DNA from: Patescibacteria group bacterium
Lineage (GTDB): Bacteria; Patescibacteriota; Minisyncoccia; UBA6257; GWB1-50-10
Direction of reading: 5' to 3'
NCBI GenBank assembly: GCA_023474215.1
Contig: JAMCYI010000007.1
Location: 1 to 42,968, forward strand
DNA length: 42,968 bases
A program made the translations under genes and the position numbers. Shown here one piece after another: positions 818 through 14,001 of this stretch. The stretch's first letter is position 1; each line of letters begins with the position of its first letter. Under the pieces are notes generated by a model. That model was not told the DNA's origin, did no database searches, and worked only from the letters and a program-made list of their open reading frames with translations.

Positions 818-1428
818 AATACAAAGCGGTGATATTCGACTTCGGCGGCGTCATTGAGCTCGACGGCGGCGGGAGCATGCTGGAGGATATCGCCGAAAAC
901 CTCCATGTCCCCCCAGAAGACCTCAAAAGAGCCTACTTCGAACGCAACCACCTCTCGAATGTACACAACGTAAAGTGGGAAGATATGATGAAAGAAGTGA
1001 TACGCGTCTTCGATAAAAGCAAGGCTGCTGAAGACCGCGTTATGGAGCTGGTACGTGAACGCCGGAACAGGAGCGCCATCAACACAGAACTTTTGAAGCT
1101 GTTTCCTATTCTCCGCCGGGAAGGATACAAAGTCGCTATTTTGAGCAATAATACGTCGGACCTCAGAAAATTTCTGGGAGAAAAAGGGATCGACAAACTC
1201 GTGGATGAGATCGTGATCTCCGGAGAAATAGGATTTCAAAAACCCCACAAGGAGGCATTCGACATCGCTTTCAAAAAATTGGGAATCCGGGCGGAAGAAG
1301 CTGTCTTCGTCGATGATTCGCCGAAAAGTCTCGAAAAAGCAGCCGAAATCGGCTATCACCCGATCCTCTTCACGGACAATGAGTCTCTGAAATCGGCCTT
1401 GGATAAGGTCGACATAACGATACAATGA
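814..1428 (+). CDS. HAD-superfamily hydrolase
   Basis: The 204-residue protein shows all four HAD motifs: nucleophile D9 in FDFGGV, LSNNT for motif II, the Lys of GFQKPHKEAF for motif III, and VFVDDSPKSLEKA for motif IV. The Asp normally two residues after the nucleophile is Gly11, as in YihX-like phosphatases, so the usual general acid/base is absent. Length and cap layout fit a soluble HAD-IA phosphatase or dehalogenase-like enzyme. The start at 814 overlaps the PAP2 stop (ATGA); an upstream in-frame extension only reads through the PAP2 gene. Substrate unknown. Confidence 0.87.
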   Translation: MKYKAVIFDFGGVIELDGGGSMLEDIAENLHVPPEDLKRAYFERNHLSNVHNVKWEDMMKEVIRVFDKSKAAEDRVMELVRERRNRSAINTELLKLFPILRREGYKVAILSNNTSDLRKFLGEKGIDKLVDEIVISGEIGFQKPHKEAFDIAFKKLGIRAEEAVFVDDSPKSLEKAAEIGYHPILFTDNESLKSALDKVDITIQ

Positions 1429-1961
1429 AGAGAGCAGAGAAATTTATCATCATTCTGGACGGGCCAATGGGTGCCGGGAAAAGTACGGTAGGAGAACTCC
1501 TCGCAAAGAGGCTGAAGCGAACTGCCATCGTGAACGAAGACAAGATCAAATGGTTCATCTCGGATTTCAAGCGGTGCAAGCGGGACAATGCCATCGTCCG
1601 CGCAGTCCTCATCGCCATGTGCAAGGAATATCTGCAGCAAGGCATCAATCTCGTGATCGCGCAGGGATTTTCGAAAACGGCGCGGCCACTCACGCCGTTT
1701 TCGACCATGGCAAAGAAGAGCGGCTACCGGCTCTTCGTCTACCACCTCAATGCCCCGAAAAATGTTCTCTTGAAGCGTATCAAGACCAGGAAGACATCGA
1801 AGAACGTTCGGGTCCCGATCGCCCAATCGAGGATCCACCGGAACATCAAAATTTGGAACGCGAACCGTTACTTCGTCGGGAAAGAGTTCCCGACCGAAAA
1901 AATGAGCGCAGAGAAAATCGCCCGGTCGATTTTGAAAGAAATGAAGCCGATCATCAAATGA
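1425..1961 (+). CDS. P-loop nucleotide kinase-like protein (AAA_33 type)
   Basis: This 178-residue protein carries a Walker A loop GPMGAGKST near residues 14-22. It is followed by an acidic NEDK stretch like the substrate-binding segment of small-molecule kinases, and by an R-x(n)-R lid region around RIKTRKTSKNVR. The overall shape is that of a nucleoside or polynucleotide kinase-type P-loop protein rather than a AAA+ machine. The start overlaps the HAD gene by four bases and its own end overlaps the next gene (ATGA). The phosphate acceptor is unknown. Zeta-toxin-like kinases share this fold, but no antitoxin partner is adjacent. Confidence 0.75.
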   Translation: MKRAEKFIIILDGPMGAGKSTVGELLAKRLKRTAIVNEDKIKWFISDFKRCKRDNAIVRAVLIAMCKEYLQQGINLVIAQGFSKTARPLTPFSTMAKKSGYRLFVYHLNAPKNVLLKRIKTRKTSKNVRVPIAQSRIHRNIKIWNANRYFVGKEFPTEKMSAEKIARSILKEMKPIIK

Positions 1962-2680
1962 AACTGAAAATTCTTTCGTGGAACATCTGGGGCGGACAAC
2001 ATCTCCCCGAAATACTGGAACTCATCGAACGGGAAAAACCGGACGTCATCGGCCTCCAGGAAGTCATCGAAGACCTCGACGGGACGAACAATACCGCGAG
2101 AACCATCGCGGAAAGGCTGGGATACGAATGGTTTTTCTACCCGACATACGAAGTGGATACCGGCCGGCTCTATCATCTCCTCGAACCCCGGACGGTACGC
2201 ATGGGAAACGCGATCTTGAGCAAACCCAAGATCGCGGAAACGGACGTGCGCCAGTTATCTGAAGAAAAGGGCAGGTTTGCCGTCGAAGCCGTTATCAACG
2301 CAGGCGGGAAAGATATCCGTTTCTTCTCGACCCACCTGAAACACACCCATCAGAAACCCGAGGAATTGCAGAACGCGCAAGCACAGTCGCTCGTGAAACT
2401 CATGCCGAAAGAGAACGCCATCCTCATGGGCGACTTCAACGCGACGCCGGAAAGCGATTGCCTCGCAATCATAAACGGAGGAACGATGAAAAATACGGAT
2501 GCGAAGCTCAAGCCAACCTGGAGCGTATACCCCGAAGGCTGCCCAATCTGCAAACCGCAGAAACTCGACACCCGCCTCGATTACCTGTTCGCCTCGAAAG
2601 ATCTGAAAACCGATTCATTCATTATTTACGATTCAAAGGGGTCCGACCACCTTCCCATTTCGGTCGTTCTCAAGATTTGA
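1958..2680 (+). CDS. Endonuclease/exonuclease/phosphatase-fold protein
   Basis: The 240-residue protein has the EEP landmarks in order: SWNIWGG near residue 9, the metal-binding Glu35 in GLQEV, an STHLKHTH segment, MGDFNATP, and the terminal GSDHLPI with catalytic His near 231. The fold covers AP endonucleases, sphingomyelinases and inositol phosphatases. No signal peptide is seen, so a cytoplasmic phosphodiesterase role is likeliest. The substrate cannot be named. It is translationally coupled to the kinase gene before it and stops four bases before the next start. Confidence 0.83.
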   Translation: MKLKILSWNIWGGQHLPEILELIEREKPDVIGLQEVIEDLDGTNNTARTIAERLGYEWFFYPTYEVDTGRLYHLLEPRTVRMGNAILSKPKIAETDVRQLSEEKGRFAVEAVINAGGKDIRFFSTHLKHTHQKPEELQNAQAQSLVKLMPKENAILMGDFNATPESDCLAIINGGTMKNTDAKLKPTWSVYPEGCPICKPQKLDTRLDYLFASKDLKTDSFIIYDSKGSDHLPISVVLKI

Positions 2681-3951: not shown

Positions 3952-6127
3952 TCACTGTTTTTTGAGGGGGAACGAAACCGTAAACGTACTCCCCTTTCCT
4001 TCCGAAGATTTGAACGTGACGGCACCGCCCATCTTGTCCGAGAGCATCCGGACGATAAAGAGCCCCAACCCCGTACCCGAGACCTCTTGAGTGTTCTTTC
4101 CGCGGACCCGGAAAAACTTTTGAAAGATATGTTCCTTTTGGTCCTCCGGAATGCCATAGCCGGTATCCTTGAATTCCATAACGACGCTCGACCCCTTTTT
4201 TGAGACGACAATGCCGAGCGTTCCGCCGGTTTTATTGTACTTGATGCCGTTGCTCACCAGATTCATAATGACCTCCTTCACTTTGTCGGAATCCACGAGC
4301 GCCGGAGGGATCTTGCCGCTGGAACGGAACGTCACCCGGACTTTCTGCTTGCGGGGCCAGCGAAGACATTTCCTTCACGACCGACTGAACGATCGGAACG
4401 ACATCGGTCGGCTGCACGGAAACTTTCACGGTGCCGGATTCCGAACGAGCGATCTCAAGGAGATCATTGATAAGCTGGTTCAAAATGTCGCTCGCCGAAT
4501 TGATCGCCTTTAAATTTTCCCGTACGTCCTTCGGGAATTTCACGCTGGTCTTTGAAACCATTTGAAGGAATCCCTTGATGGCCGCAATGGGAGTTCGAAG
4601 CTCGTGCGCGGCGATGAACACGAATTCGTCCTTCAACCGGGCGACGTTCCTTGCCTCGGCGAGTTCGCGCTCTTCGGTTTCTTTCAACTCCTTCGTGCGC
4701 TCTTCCACGCGCCCTTCCAATTCCTTGTTGAATTCCTTGATTTCGGCGTAAGACTGCGCATTGTCGATGGCAACGCCGGCGCTTAAAGCAAAGGTATTCA
4801 AAAACTTCAGATCCTGGCTGTAGTACACCTCCCCCGATCTCTTTTCTCCGAGCACCAGAAGGGCAACTTCGCGCTTTTCGACGCGGATAGGGATGGCAAC
4901 GGCAACATCGAACGACCGGAAAAGCTGTTTCAACGGCCCTTCCTCAAGATCGTCGAAGAGGAAATACGGCACCGCATCGAAAGACCCGTGAAAAAGTCCC
5001 TCGAACCCCGAAGCGGTCAAAAGCCGCTTGTCGTAACCGACACCAAAGACATTCACAAAAACATGATCACGCATAATGAGGAATGCCCCCTTCGAAATAT
5101 TCATGCTTTTCATGAGCGCTTTGAGGATTTGATCCGTCAGCGCCTCAAGATCGATCGTCTCCGCCATGATGTGAGTAAGCTCCGAAAGAAGGATGTCGCT
5201 GTCGTACGACCCGGCGAAAAAGATCTTGTTCGTTATGCGCCGCATCGAGCGCTCAAGCGGTTCGAAAGAAAGAGCGGTCACGGCTAAAAGGATGAGGAAT
5301 ATGATGAAAAGATTGAAACTGATGGGAATGAAACGATCGGCAATCAAGAGAAGCACAAGAGAATATGCACCAGCGAGGAGGACGACCAGGACCACGAAAG
5401 AAACTATGCGGACGATGACGGGCTTGATGTCCAACAGATGATACCTGCTGATGGCGTATGCGATGGCGGTAAGCAGTACAAAGAGATAGGACGGACCCAA
5501 AAACACCGTGGCGGAAGTCTTGAAAAAAACCACGAGAATGAACGTCAAAACAGCCAAGACTGAAAAAGAAAATGACATGCCGACCAAGAGGGTGCCCCAC
5601 CCGGCTTTTTCGATGCCCGTCGCCCGGTGATACTTCCTGACCATAATGACCAAACTGAGAGCTATGAGCGCCACAAAATCAATGAAGTAGAGGAAAATAC
5701 CCGGCCCCGGCACGGGAACCGGCTGGCCATTCGGATACTGAATGCCTTGGAAGATGAGCGGGGTGAACGACAAGACGGCCGTCGCCCCCATGAGAAGGAT
5801 GAGCGGAACGGAATACCGCTTCTTCATTTGAAATTTTGCACGGGGAAAGGTAGCCGCAAAAAACACCAAAAGAGGGCCGAGGAACGCGCTGAAAAACATC
5901 ACCACCCGTATCCAAAAAAGCTGATCGCCGGGGGTTTGTATCGGCGGATGCAACGACAAGAAATTCGAAATATCGTAAATGTCGATATAAACGGCGATAA
6001 GCAGGAAAAATCGGTGCGTCCAACTTTTGGGATTCTTGAGAAAAACAGCAAGACCAATGAACGTCGTAATGGCAAACACGGCGATCCCCAACACAACTTC
6101 TATCGTTTTCACCTCAAGAGGCATCAT
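3952..6127 (-). pseudogene. Sensor histidine kinase (7TM-GAF-HisKA-HATPase), broken by a one-base frameshift
   Basis: Reading from 6127, the gene encodes about seven N-terminal membrane segments resembling HisKA_7TM, then a GAF-like domain, a coiled coil, and the H-box HELRTP with phospho-acceptor His near residue 508. The frame is lost at a run of four G (4353-4356). The HATPase domain continues in another frame, with N box NLVSNGIKYN, G1 DTGYGIP, F box FQKFF and G2 GTGLGL, to the stop at 3952. Removing one base of the run restores a 724-residue kinase reading SLARKQKV at the junction. This is either a genuine recent mutation or an assembly error. The start follows a TGGTATAAT box with almost no leader. 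Confidence 0.85.
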
Positions 6128-6140
6128 TCCTATTATACCA
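6128..6140 (-). promoter_or_regulatory. Extended -10 promoter of the kinase gene
   Basis: On the minus strand TGGTATAAT (TATAAT at 6132-6137) ends four bases before the ATG at 6127, so transcription should begin at or next to the start codon. No ribosome binding site can fit. No good -35 is visible because the upstream terminator occupies that space. Confidence 0.55.
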
Positions 6141-6152
6141 ATACAAAAATAA

Positions 6153-6175
6153 AAGGACCGCGGAATGCGGTCCTT
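6153..6175 (-). terminator. Intrinsic terminator after the three-gene ThiF cassette
   Basis: A 9 bp perfect stem (AAGGACCGC with its complement, loop of five) is followed on the minus strand by TTATTTTT. It lies 14 bases after the stop of the 331-residue gene and separates the cassette from the kinase gene. Confidence 0.85.
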
Positions 6176-6188
6176 GAAAGGCAACAGA

Positions 6189-7184
6189 TCAATGATCGGC
6201 CGCCCGTATCATTTGCCGGATGCTCTTCGATCGGTCCGGTAGAGATGTGATCTTGAGTCTCAAAGCAGGGTTGTCCCCGACCTCGCGATCGAGGATATCC
6301 CGAAGCTTGCCGTCATCGGACTTGATAAAGAGTCCGATATCGTCGACCGAAAGATGCAGTTTTCTCACGGAAGCATACAACTCCTCGTTATTCAAAAAAT
6401 ACAACGGGAATCGATACACATACGAAGAAAGTGCTTGCCGATCCAAGCGGATCGACGCTTCCGGAACGCCGAGGATCACATGCGCCGGTGTGAAGGCAGG
6501 TGGAAAGATAGCGTCATTGCGTCTCACGGACAACGCTTTGACAATGAGCTCATCTCGAATGATGCCGAAGAGATACCGAAACGGAAACCCTTTCCGGGAA
6601 CATTCATCGAGGAACGATTCGTTGATGACGGCGAAACCCAGTGCAACATCCGCATGTTTCGACGGCAAGAGATCCGAGTACTTTTCGAATCCTCGGTCGC
6701 GAAAAAAGGGACGGATGCCGCAAAGCCGCGAACTGTTCACGATAAAATCCCGATAATCGGATCGGGAGCCGAAAAGAATCTCCTTCGCCGCTTCCATGAC
6801 GGGCTTGCCGTTGCAAACGAAGAGCGACAATTCCTCCACGTCAGGAGGATCGCCGCTGGCCGGTACAAAACGGTAGCTCACCCATTCTTCGATCATGGCT
6901 CCATCGAGCTTTTTCCGGTGAGGATAATCCAACCGAACAAGATACACAACGGCTTTCCCGTCGTCGCGATCGAGCGGCCGGAAATCTCCCCAACGCTGAT
7001 ACGAAGTTCTCGAAGCAACGACGAGCTTCCGCAGCGCATCGCTTTCCCATTCGTCGCGGAAAAGGCTCTTTGCTCGATACACCTCGAACTGAATTCCACC
7101 GATGACACGCTTTGCGATCGGCGGAGGAAGTGCTGTTCCGAGCTCCCGTATTTCGACAAGAGAAATTGCGGATTCGTTCTTCAT
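6189..7184 (-). CDS. Uncharacterised 331-residue protein, third gene of the ThiF-nitroreductase cassette
   Basis: I do not recognise this protein. It is soluble with no signal peptide or membrane segment. The first half contains a beta-rich stretch with FEVYRAKSLFRDEWE followed by VVYLVRLDY and WVSYRFVPASG. This arrangement loosely recalls autoinducer-synthase or FeeM-type GNAT N-acyltransferases, in which an R-x-K/R-x-x-F-x-x-E segment precedes the acyl-CoA core. That resemblance is weak and is only a hypothesis. Its start overlaps the nitroreductase stop (ATGA) and a terminator follows, so it is the last gene of the cassette and probably acts in the same pathway as the ThiF-like and nitroreductase proteins. 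Confidence 0.7.
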   Translation of the reverse strand: MKNESAISLVEIRELGTALPPPIAKRVIGGIQFEVYRAKSLFRDEWESDALRKLVVASRTSYQRWGDFRPLDRDDGKAVVYLVRLDYPHRKKLDGAMIEEWVSYRFVPASGDPPDVEELSLFVCNGKPVMEAAKEILFGSRSDYRDFIVNSSRLCGIRPFFRDRGFEKYSDLLPSKHADVALGFAVINESFLDECSRKGFPFRYLFGIIRDELIVKALSVRRNDAIFPPAFTPAHVILGVPEASIRLDRQALSSYVYRFPLYFLNNEELYASVRKLHLSVDDIGLFIKSDDGKLRDILDREVGDNPALRLKITSLPDRSKSIRQMIRAADH

Positions 7185-8257
7185 AGCAACTCCCCTTCCT
7201 CGGCAATGATCTCTCCGACCTCGTTGACCGAAAGACGCGGTGCATGGGGCATTGTTTCTTTCGCATACCCCATTCGAAAGAGCATGGTCGGACGACCCTT
7301 GCCTTTCAATCTCAGCCGGAGCATTTGATTTGCCAGGCCGACTTCGATGATGCCTGCATGAACCGCGACGCTCAGTCCGTTCGATTGAGCGGAGAGGGCG
7401 GCTTTTTCAAAAGCCATCCCGACCGTAAGCCACGACCGCGGCGTATCTTCCGGAGCGCTCACCACAAAAACGGCAGGCGAACTCCGGATACCGTTGCGGC
7501 TTGAACGGGCGAATCCCGCCATTTTTCCGGGATTCACCGGTCCGACTTTCCCCAGTTCCTGCTTTATGGAAGATGCCGTCATATCGTCCAAACCGAACGT
7601 CATTCCGGGCATTCCCCTCCCTTCCAGAGAATTGTTTACCAAAAAGAACTTCGACAGTTCGTTTCGGAAACGAGTTCTCATCACGACCGTACTGTCGGCC
7701 ATATACTGGAAGTCGGAAATGGCGAGAATGGTCGGCATATCTGTTATGACCTGCAGTTCCAAGCCCATGTCTTGAATCATTCCCGTGATCCGATCGATGA
7801 TTGCGGAAGGGATCGGCTTCGTTGAATCGTATTCGTTCCGATTCATGCTCCGCGCTTTCATGACATTCAAAAGTTCACGGTCACTGTGGAGCACGTACGA
7901 TTCGCGGACATCTTCAAGGCGGAATGAAACAATGGGCGCCGGGTACAACGGCATGCCGGGCAGAAAATCGAAGGAATAGGACAAATGGTATGATTCCGCT
8001 GCCGAAACGACATTTTGGAGCGCGCATCCGATACTGACGACCGACTGGCGCCCCCGTTTGTCGGATTCCGGTAAAACGAACCGACCGTCCAAGCAAAGAT
8101 CGATCACTCCTTTCGATGGAATGATGCGGAATTTCCACGGCTGGGTGTTATGCGTGCTTGGCGCAAGGATCCCCCACCCGACAAGATGTTCCAAGAGCTC
8201 TTCGACACCGACATCCCCTTCGAGGATCGGGATATTCCAAGGATCGTAGTTCTTCAC
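7181..8257 (-). CDS. Nitroreductase-family protein (Acg-like FMN-binding oxidoreductase)
   Basis: The 358-residue protein has the nitroreductase opening motif APSTHNTQPWKF at residues 32-43, which contacts FMN phosphate. Late segments SWLTVGMAFEKAALSAQSNGL and GKGRPTMLFRMGYAKETMPHAP match the family's second FMN and dimer region. It is longer than the typical 190-220 residue enzyme, as in the Acg group, where two nitroreductase-like halves occur in one chain. Acg proteins in actinobacteria may sequester flavin rather than turn over. It is coupled to the ThiF-like gene before it and the unknown gene after it through ATGA overlaps, implying equal expression and a joint pathway. Confidence 0.88.
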   Translation of the reverse strand: MKNYDPWNIPILEGDVGVEELLEHLVGWGILAPSTHNTQPWKFRIIPSKGVIDLCLDGRFVLPESDKRGRQSVVSIGCALQNVVSAAESYHLSYSFDFLPGMPLYPAPIVSFRLEDVRESYVLHSDRELLNVMKARSMNRNEYDSTKPIPSAIIDRITGMIQDMGLELQVITDMPTILAISDFQYMADSTVVMRTRFRNELSKFFLVNNSLEGRGMPGMTFGLDDMTASSIKQELGKVGPVNPGKMAGFARSSRNGIRSSPAVFVVSAPEDTPRSWLTVGMAFEKAALSAQSNGLSVAVHAGIIEVGLANQMLRLRLKGKGRPTMLFRMGYAKETMPHAPRLSVNEVGEIIAEEGELL

Positions 8258-9456
8258 CGACTCACCCTCCTTTCAGCGTTCGTTATGTTGATGAATGTTC
8301 GTTCCTTCAGCTCGTGTCCCAAAATGATCCGCGGAACCGCTTCTCCGGCGAGACCAGCAGCAACCATGGCGGTCGATCCGAGCTGAGGCGCACCGCCGAA
8401 CTCCGGCGGAACGCCGTCGTGCATAAGACTTTCGACAATGATCTTGAATTCGGGCATCTGCCGATAGGTATGGCCTATCAGACCGAAGGCGAATTGAAAA
8501 AAATTGCCGAGGCTCGGATTTTTCCGGTACTGCTCTTCGACGGCGGAAATCTCTTCGTCCGACATGCCGCCGATGACAAGCGGTGATCCGGGATCAAGGT
8601 CGTACCGCTGGACATCCCGCTCGGCACCGGAACCGACATCTGAACTCATGACGACCGGTTTTCGAAGCTCGCGCGCTTTGCGGCGGATAAGCATTTTGAT
8701 GTCCGGATTGTCCACTTCATCGATGACGACGGTTGCCGGCGGCTCCCCGATAGACGGATTTCCGCCGATGAAATCATCGATGTTTCCCGCGTGGATCCCT
8801 TCGTTGAAGACGGAAATCTTCAAAAAGGGGTCGATAGCGTGGAGCTGTTCGGCAGTAACGATTGCCTTGTTCCTGCCAAGCTCATCGTAGCTTATCCGCA
8901 TCCGATTTGCGTTCGTGAGATCGAATATATCTTGATCTGCAATCTTGACATGCAGGGGGCGTACATTGAACACCACGGCATGAACGACATGGTTGCCCAA
9001 GCTGCAACCGGCAACCGCCGGAACGGACTGTTCGAAACGGTTGCGCACCTTCTGCCAATCGAGTTTCATCTCGGGATCGAGGAACAGCGTTCCGTTCCTC
9101 ACCACAAGCGACAAACGGTGCCAAAACGGCGGTGCAAACCGCACCACGTGTCCGCGGCGCGGATAGTAAACGAGTGTACCGTACCCGGACATATCGCTTT
9201 CCCCTTCTTCATATGCCTCCCATTCTTCCTGGAAACTCTCGGCAAGGGGCGAACCTTGCGTCAGATCGGCGAGGAGGCCCCTCATGGTGGGGATCAGTTG
9301 ATCGAAAAAATTCTTCCGCTCCACCATGCGGAAAAATTTACCGTTCCGATCCGCCAGCTCGATGCCGTCGTCTCGGTCGCGGATTTGAAATCCTTCCGGA
9401 AGCAGAAATTCCGGTTTCCCCTCGTAATCGGCGTAGGGATTCTTTTGCGCTTCCAT
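8254..9456 (-). CDS. ThiF/E1-like adenylyltransferase-fold protein
   Basis: The 400-residue protein has a ~140-residue N-terminal extension and then an E1/ThiF Rossmann domain. A nucleotide loop AGCSLG lies at 149-154, followed by D174-x-D176, N184-R185 and K197 of the GRNKA motif, and D246/D249 with the RRKARE helix. These are the residues that bind ATP and catalyse C-terminal adenylation in ThiF, MoeB and E1. The only cysteine visible is C151 in the loop, so the usual catalytic Cys and the zinc CxxC pairs are missing; adenylation without thioester transfer is likelier. AAAGGAG lies ten bases before the ATG. First gene of the cassette. Confidence 0.83.
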   Translation of the reverse strand: MEAQKNPYADYEGKPEFLLPEGFQIRDRDDGIELADRNGKFFRMVERKNFFDQLIPTMRGLLADLTQGSPLAESFQEEWEAYEEGESDMSGYGTLVYYPRRGHVVRFAPPFWHRLSLVVRNGTLFLDPEMKLDWQKVRNRFEQSVPAVAGCSLGNHVVHAVVFNVRPLHVKIADQDIFDLTNANRMRISYDELGRNKAIVTAEQLHAIDPFLKISVFNEGIHAGNIDDFIGGNPSIGEPPATVVIDEVDNPDIKMLIRRKARELRKPVVMSSDVGSGAERDVQRYDLDPGSPLVIGGMSDEEISAVEEQYRKNPSLGNFFQFAFGLIGHTYRQMPEFKIIVESLMHDGVPPEFGGAPQLGSTAMVAAGLAGEAVPRIILGHELKERTFINITNAERRVSR

Positions 9457-9583: not shown

Positions 9584-9991
9584 ATGACAACTCAAACGGA
9601 TGCCCCCTTGAACGGCGTGACCGTCCTTATTGCCGACGACGATCCGCTTATTTGCCAGCTGTACCGAGAAACCGTGGAACGGGCGGGCGGAAGTGCCGTC
9701 GTGGCAGTCGACGGCGGCGATGCGCTCCGGAAACTCGGAGAAGCGAGCGTTGATTTGATCCTCCTTGATATTAAAATGCCGAATATGAACGGCTATGAGG
9801 TGGTTCGAAGGCTGCGGAGCGACCCGAAAACGAAGGACATTCCGGTCTTTATTCTCACGAGCCTCGATACTCATCCGGAATACTTGGAAGAGACGACTGG
9901 CGTAAAGGTGGATGAATATATCATCAAAACGAAAATACTGCCGGATGAGATCGTGGGAAAGATACGCGAACACTTGAAGAAAGAAAATTAA
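9584..9991 (+). CDS. Single-domain response regulator (receiver only)
   Basis: The 135-residue protein is a complete REC domain and nothing more. It has acidic pocket D18-D20, phospho-acceptor D62 in LLDIKMP, the signalling Thr at 92 and conserved Lys115. With no output domain it must act through protein contact, as CheY- or Spo0F-like receivers do. It is divergent from the ThiF-like operon, and the nearest kinase is the frameshifted gene at 3952-6127 on the other side of the cassette, so the two are probable partners by position. Its mRNA should be leaderless and ends at a strong terminator. Confidence 0.92.
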   Translation: MTTQTDAPLNGVTVLIADDDPLICQLYRETVERAGGSAVVAVDGGDALRKLGEASVDLILLDIKMPNMNGYEVVRRLRSDPKTKDIPVFILTSLDTHPEYLEETTGVKVDEYIIKTKILPDEIVGKIREHLKKEN

Positions 9992-11634: not shown

Positions 11635-14001
11635 TCAGCGCCTTTTCGGTCCCTTTATGGAATGTCCACCAAATTGATTCCGCAGCATCGAAAGGATCTG
11701 ACCGATGTAACTCGGATGTTTTTCCGATTGGACTCGGAAATCGAACGAATCCTTGATCACTTTGACCGACACGCCGAGTTTCTTCGCCGTCTTCACGGTC
11801 CACTCGCCTTCCCCGGTATGCGCCACGGTTCCCGAAACACCCCTCAAGTCGTCGCCGTACTCCGCAAAACCTGATTTCAGCCAATCAACAAGGCGCGACG
11901 TGATGACGCTCCCGTGGCCGTATACCCGCGCGATCTCCTGTAAATCCAGCGCGAGCTTCGATTTCTTGATGACCGCGAACCCTTCCGCCAGAGCCTGCAT
12001 CATGCCGTACTCGATTCCGTTATGGACCATCTTCACGAAATGCCCCGCGCCATGGCGACCCATATACCCATAGCCATCCTTGAGTGCGAGATCGAAGAAG
12101 AGCGGCTCGAGATAGTCGAAATCTTTCCGATCGCCGCCCACCATGAGGGATGCCCCGTTCAGGGCGCCTCCCGGTCCCCCTGAAACGCCCACATCGATAA
12201 ACCGGATGCCTGCTTTTTGAAGTTTCTTCGCGCGCGTGATTGAATCTTCAAAAAACGAATTGCCCCCGTCAACGATGACATCTCCTTTTTTCAAATATCT
12301 GAGGATCCCCCCACTTCCGAAAATCATTTCATCAACCGTCTTGCCGGCGGGAACCATAAGCCATACGACTTTTGGAGAAGGGAGTTTCGAGACAAGTTCC
12401 TCGATCGAAGAAGCCGCAATAAGGCCTTCCTTTCCCATATTCCTTGCAATTTCGGTCGTCCGGTTCCATACATGGACTTTCCACCCCTTCCCATGCAATT
12501 GCCGTGCGAGCGCGGCGCCCATCTTCCCCAAACCAACAATGCCGATTTCTTTCGGCATGCCGACTGAAACGGCCGGCCCGTCCACAACTTCAGCCTCCTT
12601 TGCAATGCGGCTTGAATCGGGCTCATAACGCATCAAGGGAACTGTCCCCCTTCGCCATCCGGCGATGATCGGATCGATGAATTTCCACATCGCCTTGATT
12701 TCGCCCGATGAAACGAAGAGTGTTTGATCGTCTGAAATGCAATCAAAAAGGAGCTTCTCGTATTCTTCGGTATACTGAGAGTGTTCGCCGCTCCTCCTGA
12801 ATTCGAAACCGAGCGTACGTTTCTCAAGCTCCATCCGGTGCCCCGGCTTTTTAGACCAAAAACATACCGTAATCCCCTCCTTCGGTTCGAGATGGATGGT
12901 AAGTGAATCTTTGTACGGCGTGTCGTTCCTGAAAACGACTTCGATCTCCTTCAGGGGCTTTCCCATCCGCTTTCCGGATTCCAAGGTGATGTCGACACCC
13001 TGCCAGCGGGGATGCATAAGCGCGGCCTTGATCTTGAAATAGGTTTCAGTATCCGAGTCGGTCGTAACGCCCTTGATCGTTCGGTAACCATTGTACTGGG
13101 CGCGGAAAGTTCCTCTTTGAACCTCGCCGGCCGAGGGCGTTTTCAACGTTTCGATGATCCTCGCCCGTTCCCGCCTGATGTCCTCGGCCGAAAACGATGC
13201 CGGCTTTTCCATCGCAATGAGCGCGAGCATTTGAAGCAGATGATTTTGCCCGACGTCCCGGAGGGCCCCCACACCGTCGTAAAACCCTCCCCGCTCTTCG
13301 ACGCCGATCGATTCCCAAAGGCGGATATGAATGCTTTCGATAAGCTCCTTATCCCACGCCGACTCGAAGAGATTGTTCGAGAAACGGAATACCAGGATGT
13401 TTTGAAGCATCTCTTTTGCAAGGTAGTGATCGATCCGGTAAATTTGTTTTTCCTTGAACAGTTTGTCGAGCAGGCCGTCGAGCGCCTTCGCGCTTTTTTC
13501 GTCGCTCCCGAACGGCTTTTCGACAATGACGCGCGTCCACCCTTCGTCGGGCCCGCCGCACGGCTCATTCAGACCCGTTGCCGCAAGATTGTTCAAAATT
13601 TCCGGATACATCCGGGGCGGAACGGCCAAATACAAAAGTTTATTGGAACACATGCCCCATGATTCATCGATCGATTGCAGCGTCTTCGCTAGGGCTTCGA
13701 AGTCTTTCTTGCTCTCGAATGTTCCCCGCTGATACGAATAGAGGGACAGGAAATCCTTAATGATCGTATCACTCTTCTTCACTTTGTGGCGCTTCGCGAG
13801 AACCTCGAATGCCCGATCCCGGAGATCTTGGTCGGTAAGATCGCGCCGCGCAAAACCGACGAGGCGAAACCGTTCGGGAAGCAAACCTTTCTGATAAAGA
13901 TTGAAAAGCGAGGGAACGATCTTTTTCCCCATAAGGTCTCCTGTTGCCCCCAAAACCACGACAATGGTCGGTATTTGCGGCGTCTTCGTTTTCTTTTTCA
14001 T
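11635..14001 (-). CDS. Bifunctional glucose-6-phosphate dehydrogenase / 6-phosphogluconate dehydrogenase fusion
   Basis: One 788-residue frame holds two complete oxidative pentose-phosphate enzymes. Residues 1 to about 480 are Zwf-like: coenzyme loop VLGATGDLMGKK, active-site RIDHYLAKE, and DVGQNHLLQMLALIAMEKP. From about 490, a GndA-type decarboxylating 6-phosphogluconate dehydrogenase follows: GIVGLGKMGAALA, DGGNSFFEDS, SGGPGGA, GAGHFVKMVHNGIEYGMMQA and terminal RNQFGGH. No stop or ribosome site separates them, although an internal Met starts the second module. The lactonase for the intermediate is not fused and not in the window. The enzyme would yield two NADPH and ribulose-5-phosphate, with possible channelling. 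Confidence 0.93.
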   Translation of the reverse strand: MKKKTKTPQIPTIVVVLGATGDLMGKKIVPSLFNLYQKGLLPERFRLVGFARRDLTDQDLRDRAFEVLAKRHKVKKSDTIIKDFLSLYSYQRGTFESKKDFEALAKTLQSIDESWGMCSNKLLYLAVPPRMYPEILNNLAATGLNEPCGGPDEGWTRVIVEKPFGSDEKSAKALDGLLDKLFKEKQIYRIDHYLAKEMLQNILVFRFSNNLFESAWDKELIESIHIRLWESIGVEERGGFYDGVGALRDVGQNHLLQMLALIAMEKPASFSAEDIRRERARIIETLKTPSAGEVQRGTFRAQYNGYRTIKGVTTDSDTETYFKIKAALMHPRWQGVDITLESGKRMGKPLKEIEVVFRNDTPYKDSLTIHLEPKEGITVCFWSKKPGHRMELEKRTLGFEFRRSGEHSQYTEEYEKLLFDCISDDQTLFVSSGEIKAMWKFIDPIIAGWRRGTVPLMRYEPDSSRIAKEAEVVDGPAVSVGMPKEIGIVGLGKMGAALARQLHGKGWKVHVWNRTTEIARNMGKEGLIAASSIEELVSKLPSPKVVWLMVPAGKTVDEMIFGSGGILRYLKKGDVIVDGGNSFFEDSITRAKKLQKAGIRFIDVGVSGGPGGALNGASLMVGGDRKDFDYLEPLFFDLALKDGYGYMGRHGAGHFVKMVHNGIEYGMMQALAEGFAVIKKSKLALDLQEIARVYGHGSVITSRLVDWLKSGFAEYGDDLRGVSGTVAHTGEGEWTVKTAKKLGVSVKVIKDSFDFRVQSEKHPSYIGQILSMLRNQFGGHSIKGPKRR

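Follow-up and report, generated by a model that had tools for sequence, protein, structure and literature searches.

The window analysed here comprises positions 1-42,968 of contig JAMCYI010000007.1 from a Patescibacteria group bacterium (genome, 704 kb; completeness, 93%). It carries three coupled genes, encoding a ThiF/E1-like adenylating protein, an Acg-type flavin mononucleotide (FMN) nitroreductase, and a 331-residue protein of a new family, next to the gene of a sensor histidine kinase with a seven-transmembrane (7TM) input domain. The sensor kinase is a near-constant member of such cassettes, and the product class to which the trio points, the acyl-oxazolone type, is already known; both points had escaped the original prediction, which described the trio as a small pathway activating a carboxylate and using a flavoprotein, a reading with which the evidence from sequence, predicted fold, and genomic context agrees. 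We consider the chances even that the cassette is a signal synthase together with its receptor, resembling an autoinducer system. The novelty lies in the occurrence of the cassette in Patescibacteria, its almost invariable association with 7TM kinases in two phyla, and an acyltransferase-like family that current libraries fail to recognise; the enzyme chemistry is of a known kind.

Linkage of the cassette to 7TM histidine kinases

In 384 sampled genomes of the class, 40 matches to the ThiF profile were obtained, from which two weak outliers, apparently belonging to another subfamily, were dropped to leave 38. Three of these loci (L128, L191, and L193), in which the contig stops short of the place where a kinase might be seen, were left out, and all of the remaining 35 loci with enough flanking sequence contain a histidine kinase in the cluster. 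Of the kinases, 34 were read in the clusters themselves, and that of G621 (L171) was recognised by its HisKA match (C7:142465-142671) just past the stretch read, which ends within the nitroreductase gene. The class genomes contain on average 3.1 HisKA matches, and the chance expectation of one near the cassette is ~4.6%. All 11 cluster kinases tested contain HisKA_7TM, HisKA, and HATPase_c, and some also carry a GAF domain. In Bacteroidota, a kinase of the 7TMR-DISM type lies at most five genes away in 33 of the 34 loci with full flanks. It usually follows the gene of a 240-residue product that takes the place of the acyltransferase, and the genes overlap in those loci that were read. The 7TM input domains of the kinases from Bacteroidota and from the candidate phyla radiation (CPR) are unrelated. 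Gene order and orientation differ between clusters, and the kinase linkage persists. No histidine kinase is mentioned in the papers on the acyl-oxazolone and stieleriacine pathways, and a literature search covering open-licence papers found none that connects such clusters with histidine kinases.

The kinase of the window has all three domains in a broken frame (near 4325-4353), with residues 1-607 and 592-724 encoded in two frames, and the copy in the sister genome G383 is intact (724 residues, with HisKA_7TM, HisKA, and HATPase_c). The break could stem from faulty sequencing, from decay of the gene, or from lability of the site; a kinase relic in G382 is broken at nearly the same place (residues 580-593, at 3719-3749 of L205, compared with 592-607 in the window). 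G382, a genome of the same genus, has kept the syntenic neighbours and the response regulator, and has lost both the trio and the 7TM half of the kinase. A broken relic of the 331-residue gene likewise stands directly before a kinase split over two frames in G425. That trio and kinase are lost together is consistent with a common function.

The ThiF-like protein and the nitroreductase

The ThiF-like protein matches Pfam ThiF (PF00899; 2.5e-15) and, in NCBIfam, the N-terminal half of the Rv1355c family (2e-37, below the curated cut-off). The 358-residue nitroreductase matches Pfam Nitroreductase (9.8e-11), the NCBIfam Acg family (1.3e-55) and the C-terminal half of the Rv1355c family (9.7e-20; both below the curated cut-offs), and Acg itself in the PDB (2ymv; 1.9e-6). 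The Acg-like type assigned to it beforehand is borne out, as is the suggested link to actinobacterial ThiF-nitroreductase combinations, in that the pair matches both halves of Rv1355c. Rv1355c is TrzS, which carries FMN, cyclises N-acyl tryptophan with ATP, and desaturates it with O2, and the equivalent steps on N-acyl tyrosine are divided between two proteins, TyzB and TyzC (PMC12856293, PMC10404671). In TrzS, cyclisation is lost in the D217A variant and desaturation is impaired in R540A (PMC12856293).

Gly150, Gly154, Asp174, Asn182, Asn184, Arg185, Lys197, and Asp249 of the ThiF-like protein are invariant in 21 CPR relatives, and its adenylation residues are common to the Rv1355c-family fusions. 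Among the adenylation residues proposed earlier, Lys197, Asp174, and Asp249 therefore stand, whereas Asp176 varies. The locus contains a ThiF-like cyclase of the TyzB/TrzS group, by both the family match and the retained residues, with a flavin-dependent oxidase adjacent to it (fused in L130). Cys151 is the sole cysteine, as had been noted, and is not conserved in the relatives, in line with a cyclase that has no need for a thioester.

Relatives of the Rv1355c family are also present on plasmids, where no match to the 331-residue protein was found; two hypothetical proteins encoded beside such plasmid genes were tried as its homologues and rejected, their direct alignment scores being those of chance. 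On a Streptomyces plasmid (L017 4812-6610), the gene of a similar ThiF protein overlaps one annotated as GNAT, with no annotated nitroreductase adjoining.

Family and predicted fold of the 331-residue protein

The 331-residue protein has no sequence match in Pfam, NCBIfam, or the PDB. A single-sequence search of 380 genomes of the phylum returned only the window's own protein, a result that by itself would have made the gene look, mistakenly, like an orphan; the family was assembled with profiles iterated step by step. A homologue alignment was likewise needed for structure prediction, which from the single sequence gave a pLDDT of 33 and from a 10-row alignment, with AlphaFold2, a model of pLDDT 87.3 and pTM 0.87. 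In a Foldseek search of the PDB, the model retrieved LasI at rank 1 (E 0.03) and FeeM at ranks 2 and 3, with modest scores, and GNAT-fold acyltransferases made up almost the entire list of the 19 best entries. In an independent viral library, a phage N-acyl homoserine lactone (AHL) synthase came first (E 0.007).

For comparison at the profile level, a LuxI profile was built from an alignment of nine AHL synthases, the LasI seed being a 100% match to an annotated lasI. The 331 family scored 25.8 against it in hhalign, compared with 13.7 ± 2.6 (maximum, 22.1) for 60 column-shuffled controls and ~15 for the ThiF and kinase profiles. The alignment pairs D72xxD75 with D44xxD47 of LuxI, R105xxP108xxG111 with the segment from Arg70 to Gly76, and SR152-153 with SR103-104. 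By sequence, the protein is not a LuxI-type AHL synthase, having no Pfam or NCBIfam match and an hhalign probability of 4%. TyzA, the acyltransferase of Mycobacterium tuberculosis, has been reported to be nearest to FeeM and the AHL synthase BjaI (PMC10404671, PMC12856293). Judging from fold, profile, and this precedent, the 331-residue protein is probably an N-acyltransferase of AHL-synthase-like fold. The suggestion that it is an acyl or peptide transferase is accordingly favoured by its resemblance, in predicted fold and profile, to AHL and N-acyl-amino-acid synthases, and the model nearest to LasI and FeeM shows no unrelated housekeeping fold.

Recurrence of the trio and interchange of the third gene

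Homologues of the 331-residue protein adjoin ThiF in nine further families, of which eight include a nitroreductase and eight a kinase, so that the association is more than chance and the trio proposed earlier does recur. The order is ThiF, nitroreductase, 331, and kinase in L117, L120, and L131, and ThiF, 331, nitroreductase, and kinase in L129 and L132. In L130 the 331 gene adjoins a fused ThiF-nitroreductase gene and a kinase; in L119 the order is regulator, 331, ThiF, and kinase, with the nitroreductase on the opposite strand; in L118 it is ThiF, 331, and kinase without a nitroreductase; and in L128 regulator, ThiF, 331, and nitroreductase are followed by the contig end that cuts the locus. 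In L118, the 331-family member and the kinase flank a gene (1074-2000, minus strand) for a 308-residue protein without a Pfam match, methyltransferase-like by eye. In G384 (L009 12107-13624), the nitroreductase match ends at residue 227; the adjoining gene encodes a recombinase zinc-ribbon domain, which suggests a mobile-element insertion into the cassette.

In most other CPR genomes, an adenylating enzyme resembling PaaK occupies the third slot (PDB 2y4o, E 6.5e-10; NCBIfam PaaK, 1.3e-13), and the 331 family (10 loci) and the PaaK-like ligase (38 loci) share no locus. In L130, the 331 homologue takes the place of the Bacteroidota acyltransferase-like gene beside the ThiF-nitroreductase fusion. 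On the ThiF tree, which came from a quick search and is weak at several forks, five changes of the 331 label are required, three or more of them on well supported branches, and the label is found once on a fusion of the Bacteroidota type. This interchange of the 331, PaaK-like, and Bacteroidota third genes points to one common step, the formation of an amide. A profile comparison between the 331 family and the Bacteroidota third gene gave no match, and that of the latter with LuxI was not significant (P 0.11); it is called acyltransferase-like mainly because of its position.

The PaaK-type loci often contain a tyrosine ammonia-lyase-like, tryptophan-dehydrogenase-like, or aminotransferase gene. 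Aromatic ammonia-lyases lie inside the clusters of L012 (6053-7657), L045, L061, L167, L171, L172, L175, L178, L181, and L183, that of L012 being closest to the flexirubin tyrosine ammonia-lyase, and give a hint of an aryl acid (e.g., p-coumarate) as the acyl part there. A gene resembling the tryptophan dehydrogenase ScyB precedes the PaaK-like gene in L028 (5197-6276; 4.5e-88), with similar genes in several CPR loci.

Proposed pathway and alternative explanations

By analogy with the characterised relatives TyzACB and TrzAS, the 331-residue enzyme would acylate the amino group of an amino acid, and the ThiF-like protein would adenylate the carboxylate of the resulting N-acyl amino acid with ATP, leading to closure of a five-membered oxazolone (azlactone). 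The FMN nitroreductase would then remove two hydrogens (α,β-desaturation) to give an N-acyl-azolone. This product, or its hydrolysed form, would be bound by the 7TM histidine kinase, with transfer of phosphate to the receiver-only regulator, a sensing step that we infer from linkage and co-loss. The adjacency of 7TM kinases in dozens of related genomes suggests that acyl-oxazolone-like products may be chemical signals. Somewhat short of an even chance, in our estimate, is the broader proposal of a hitherto unrecognised bacterial signalling class, based on azolone-type molecules, in which ThiF and the nitroreductase are combined with interchangeable amide-forming enzymes (the AHL-synthase-fold family, a PaaK-like ligase, or a GNAT-like protein), and dedicated 7TM kinases sense the product in Patescibacteria and Bacteroidota.

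Several observations weigh against a signal synthase paired with its receptor. The kinase is frameshifted in the window, and a terminator stands between it and the trio. Many of the loci and genomes are related (~10 of those from Bacteroidota are Algoriphagus), so that the linkage counts exaggerate the number of independent cases. The fold matches are weak (best E, 0.03 in the PDB and 0.007 in the viral library), and the hhalign probability of the 331 family against LuxI is, as given above, 4%. TyzC and TrzS need O2 (PMC12856293, PMC10404671), and an O2-dependent desaturation may be unsuited to these organisms. Mycobacterium trzAS adjoins cyclic di-GMP genes, with no kinase mentioned (PMC12856293), and stieleriacine producers with an equal gene set yielded no oxazolones (PMC12479983). 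Finally, neither an acyl carrier protein nor an AMP-binding ligase was found in the window genome; candidate donors are acyl-CoAs, either short or scavenged, and other compounds such as aminoacyl-tRNA.

The last point bears on an alternative that we regard as rather unlikely, in which the 331-residue transferase uses another donor (e.g., aminoacyl-tRNA or acetyl-CoA) and makes a dipeptide-like or short-chain product, cyclised or desaturated, and not a lipid. The genome without a detected carrier protein or ligase, the many general GNAT enzymes in the fold search, and the preference of TrzA for short acyl-CoAs (C4-C5; PMC12856293) would suit it, but the best fold matches are specifically AHL and N-acyl-amino-acid synthases and the LuxI motifs align. 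We see only a small chance that the product of the trio is instead an N-acyl amino acid derivative with antibiotic-like or membrane-active properties, directed against neighbours or the host cell, with the kinase sensing envelope stress and not the molecule. N-acyl tyrosines are antimicrobial (PMC12856293), and the GAF domain of some kinases could sense other cues; however, no transporter or immunity gene is constant in the clusters read, and two unrelated 7TM inputs in two phyla fit direct small-molecule sensing better.

The kinase linkage could also be an operon accident inherited from one ancestor, uninformative on ligand sensing, a reading favoured by the mutual homology of the CPR kinases and the relatedness of many loci. 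This is improbable in view of the linkage that stays while order and orientation vary, the use of a different 7TM kinase in Bacteroidota, and the joint loss of the synthase and the sensor half in G382. Adenylation of the C-terminus of a small protein is a common activity of ThiF/E1 proteins, and a ubiquitin-like modification of proteins or peptides, unrelated to small-molecule signalling, was therefore considered; it was dropped as highly improbable, because the recurrent clusters showed no recognisable small partner of ubiquitin-like type, the sole ThiF cysteine is not conserved, and the closest relatives are small-molecule cyclases.

Comparison with known systems

The cassette shares with TyzACB/TrzAS of M. 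tuberculosis (PMC10404671, PMC12856293) an acyltransferase (predicted in the present case), a ThiF-like cyclase, and an Acg-like oxidase in adjacent or fused form, together with the adenylation motif, and differs in its other, previously unrecognised acyltransferase family, its Patescibacteria host, and the 7TM kinase and response regulator in the locus. The NasY-ThiF-nitroreductase clusters for stieleriacines, thalassotalic acids, and kyonggic acids (PMC12479983) likewise have a three-enzyme set with overlapping genes, whereas their products are N-acyl dehydrotyrosines and no histidine kinase is mentioned. The 331-residue protein resembles LuxI-type AHL synthases and FeeM in predicted fold and in the motif order D..D / R..P..G / SR; unlike them, it has no detectable Pfam, NCBIfam, or PDB sequence homology, contains an extra C-terminal region, and would leave ring closure to ThiF. 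In systems of the LuxM/LuxN type, an AHL signal made by an acyltransferase is sensed by an adjoining multi-span membrane histidine kinase. The synthase chemistry and the 7TM domain of the present cassette are different, and its ligand binding is putative.

The role of bacterial acyl-oxazolones was called a major unresolved question in a 2025 paper (PMC12856293). The 7TM-kinase linkage in two distant phyla makes the signal idea directly testable in cultivable Bacteroidota. If true, it would provide a candidate small-molecule signalling system for Patescibacteria, organisms with very small gene sets that rely on other cells. The cassette also adds an enzyme family, similar to AHL synthases, that escapes current libraries.

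Layout of the locus

The features of the locus are listed in Table 1. Both junctions of the trio are 4-bp overlaps; the coupling of all three genes by ATGA had been proposed, and this sequence is found between the nitroreductase and the 331-residue gene, whereas ThiF and the nitroreductase are joined by GTGA. The terminator thought to close the trio is represented by the hairpin at 6175-6153, which is kept in G383, and the kinase and receiver-only regulator named as flanking genes were both identified by Pfam. ThiF and the regulator are separated by a 127-bp intergenic region, an arrangement repeated in G384. Promoter-like matches at the trio showed no excess over shuffled sequence; the TATAAT box is a possible separate promoter of the kinase.

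Table 1. Features of the cassette and its flanks, in window coordinates
Feature	Position	Strand	Evidence or remarks
ThiF/E1-like adenylating cyclase (TyzB / TrzS N-half type)	8254..9456	-	400 aa; Pfam PF00899, NCBIfam Rv1355c family
Acg-type FMN nitroreductase / flavin-dependent oxidase	7181..8257	-	358 aa, GTG start; NCBIfam, PDB 2ymv
331-residue protein, new family, predicted AHL-synthase/N-acyltransferase-like fold	6189..7184	-	AlphaFold2 model, Foldseek, hhalign
Terminator-like hairpin and T tract between 331-residue gene and kinase	6153..6175	-	9-bp stem, z -3.0
TATAAT box, 4 bases 5' of kinase ATG	6132..6137	-	sequence; identical in G383
HisKA_7TM sensor histidine kinase (7TM-GAF-HisKA-HATPase), frame broken	3952..6127	-	Pfam; intact G383 copy
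Receiver-only response regulator, divergent from ThiF	9584..9991	+	Pfam Response_reg 1.1e-21

Elsewhere in the window (11635-14001, minus strand), a 788-residue fusion of glucose-6-phosphate dehydrogenase and 6-phosphogluconate dehydrogenase was recognised by Pfam, with matching fusions in G382, G383, and G384.

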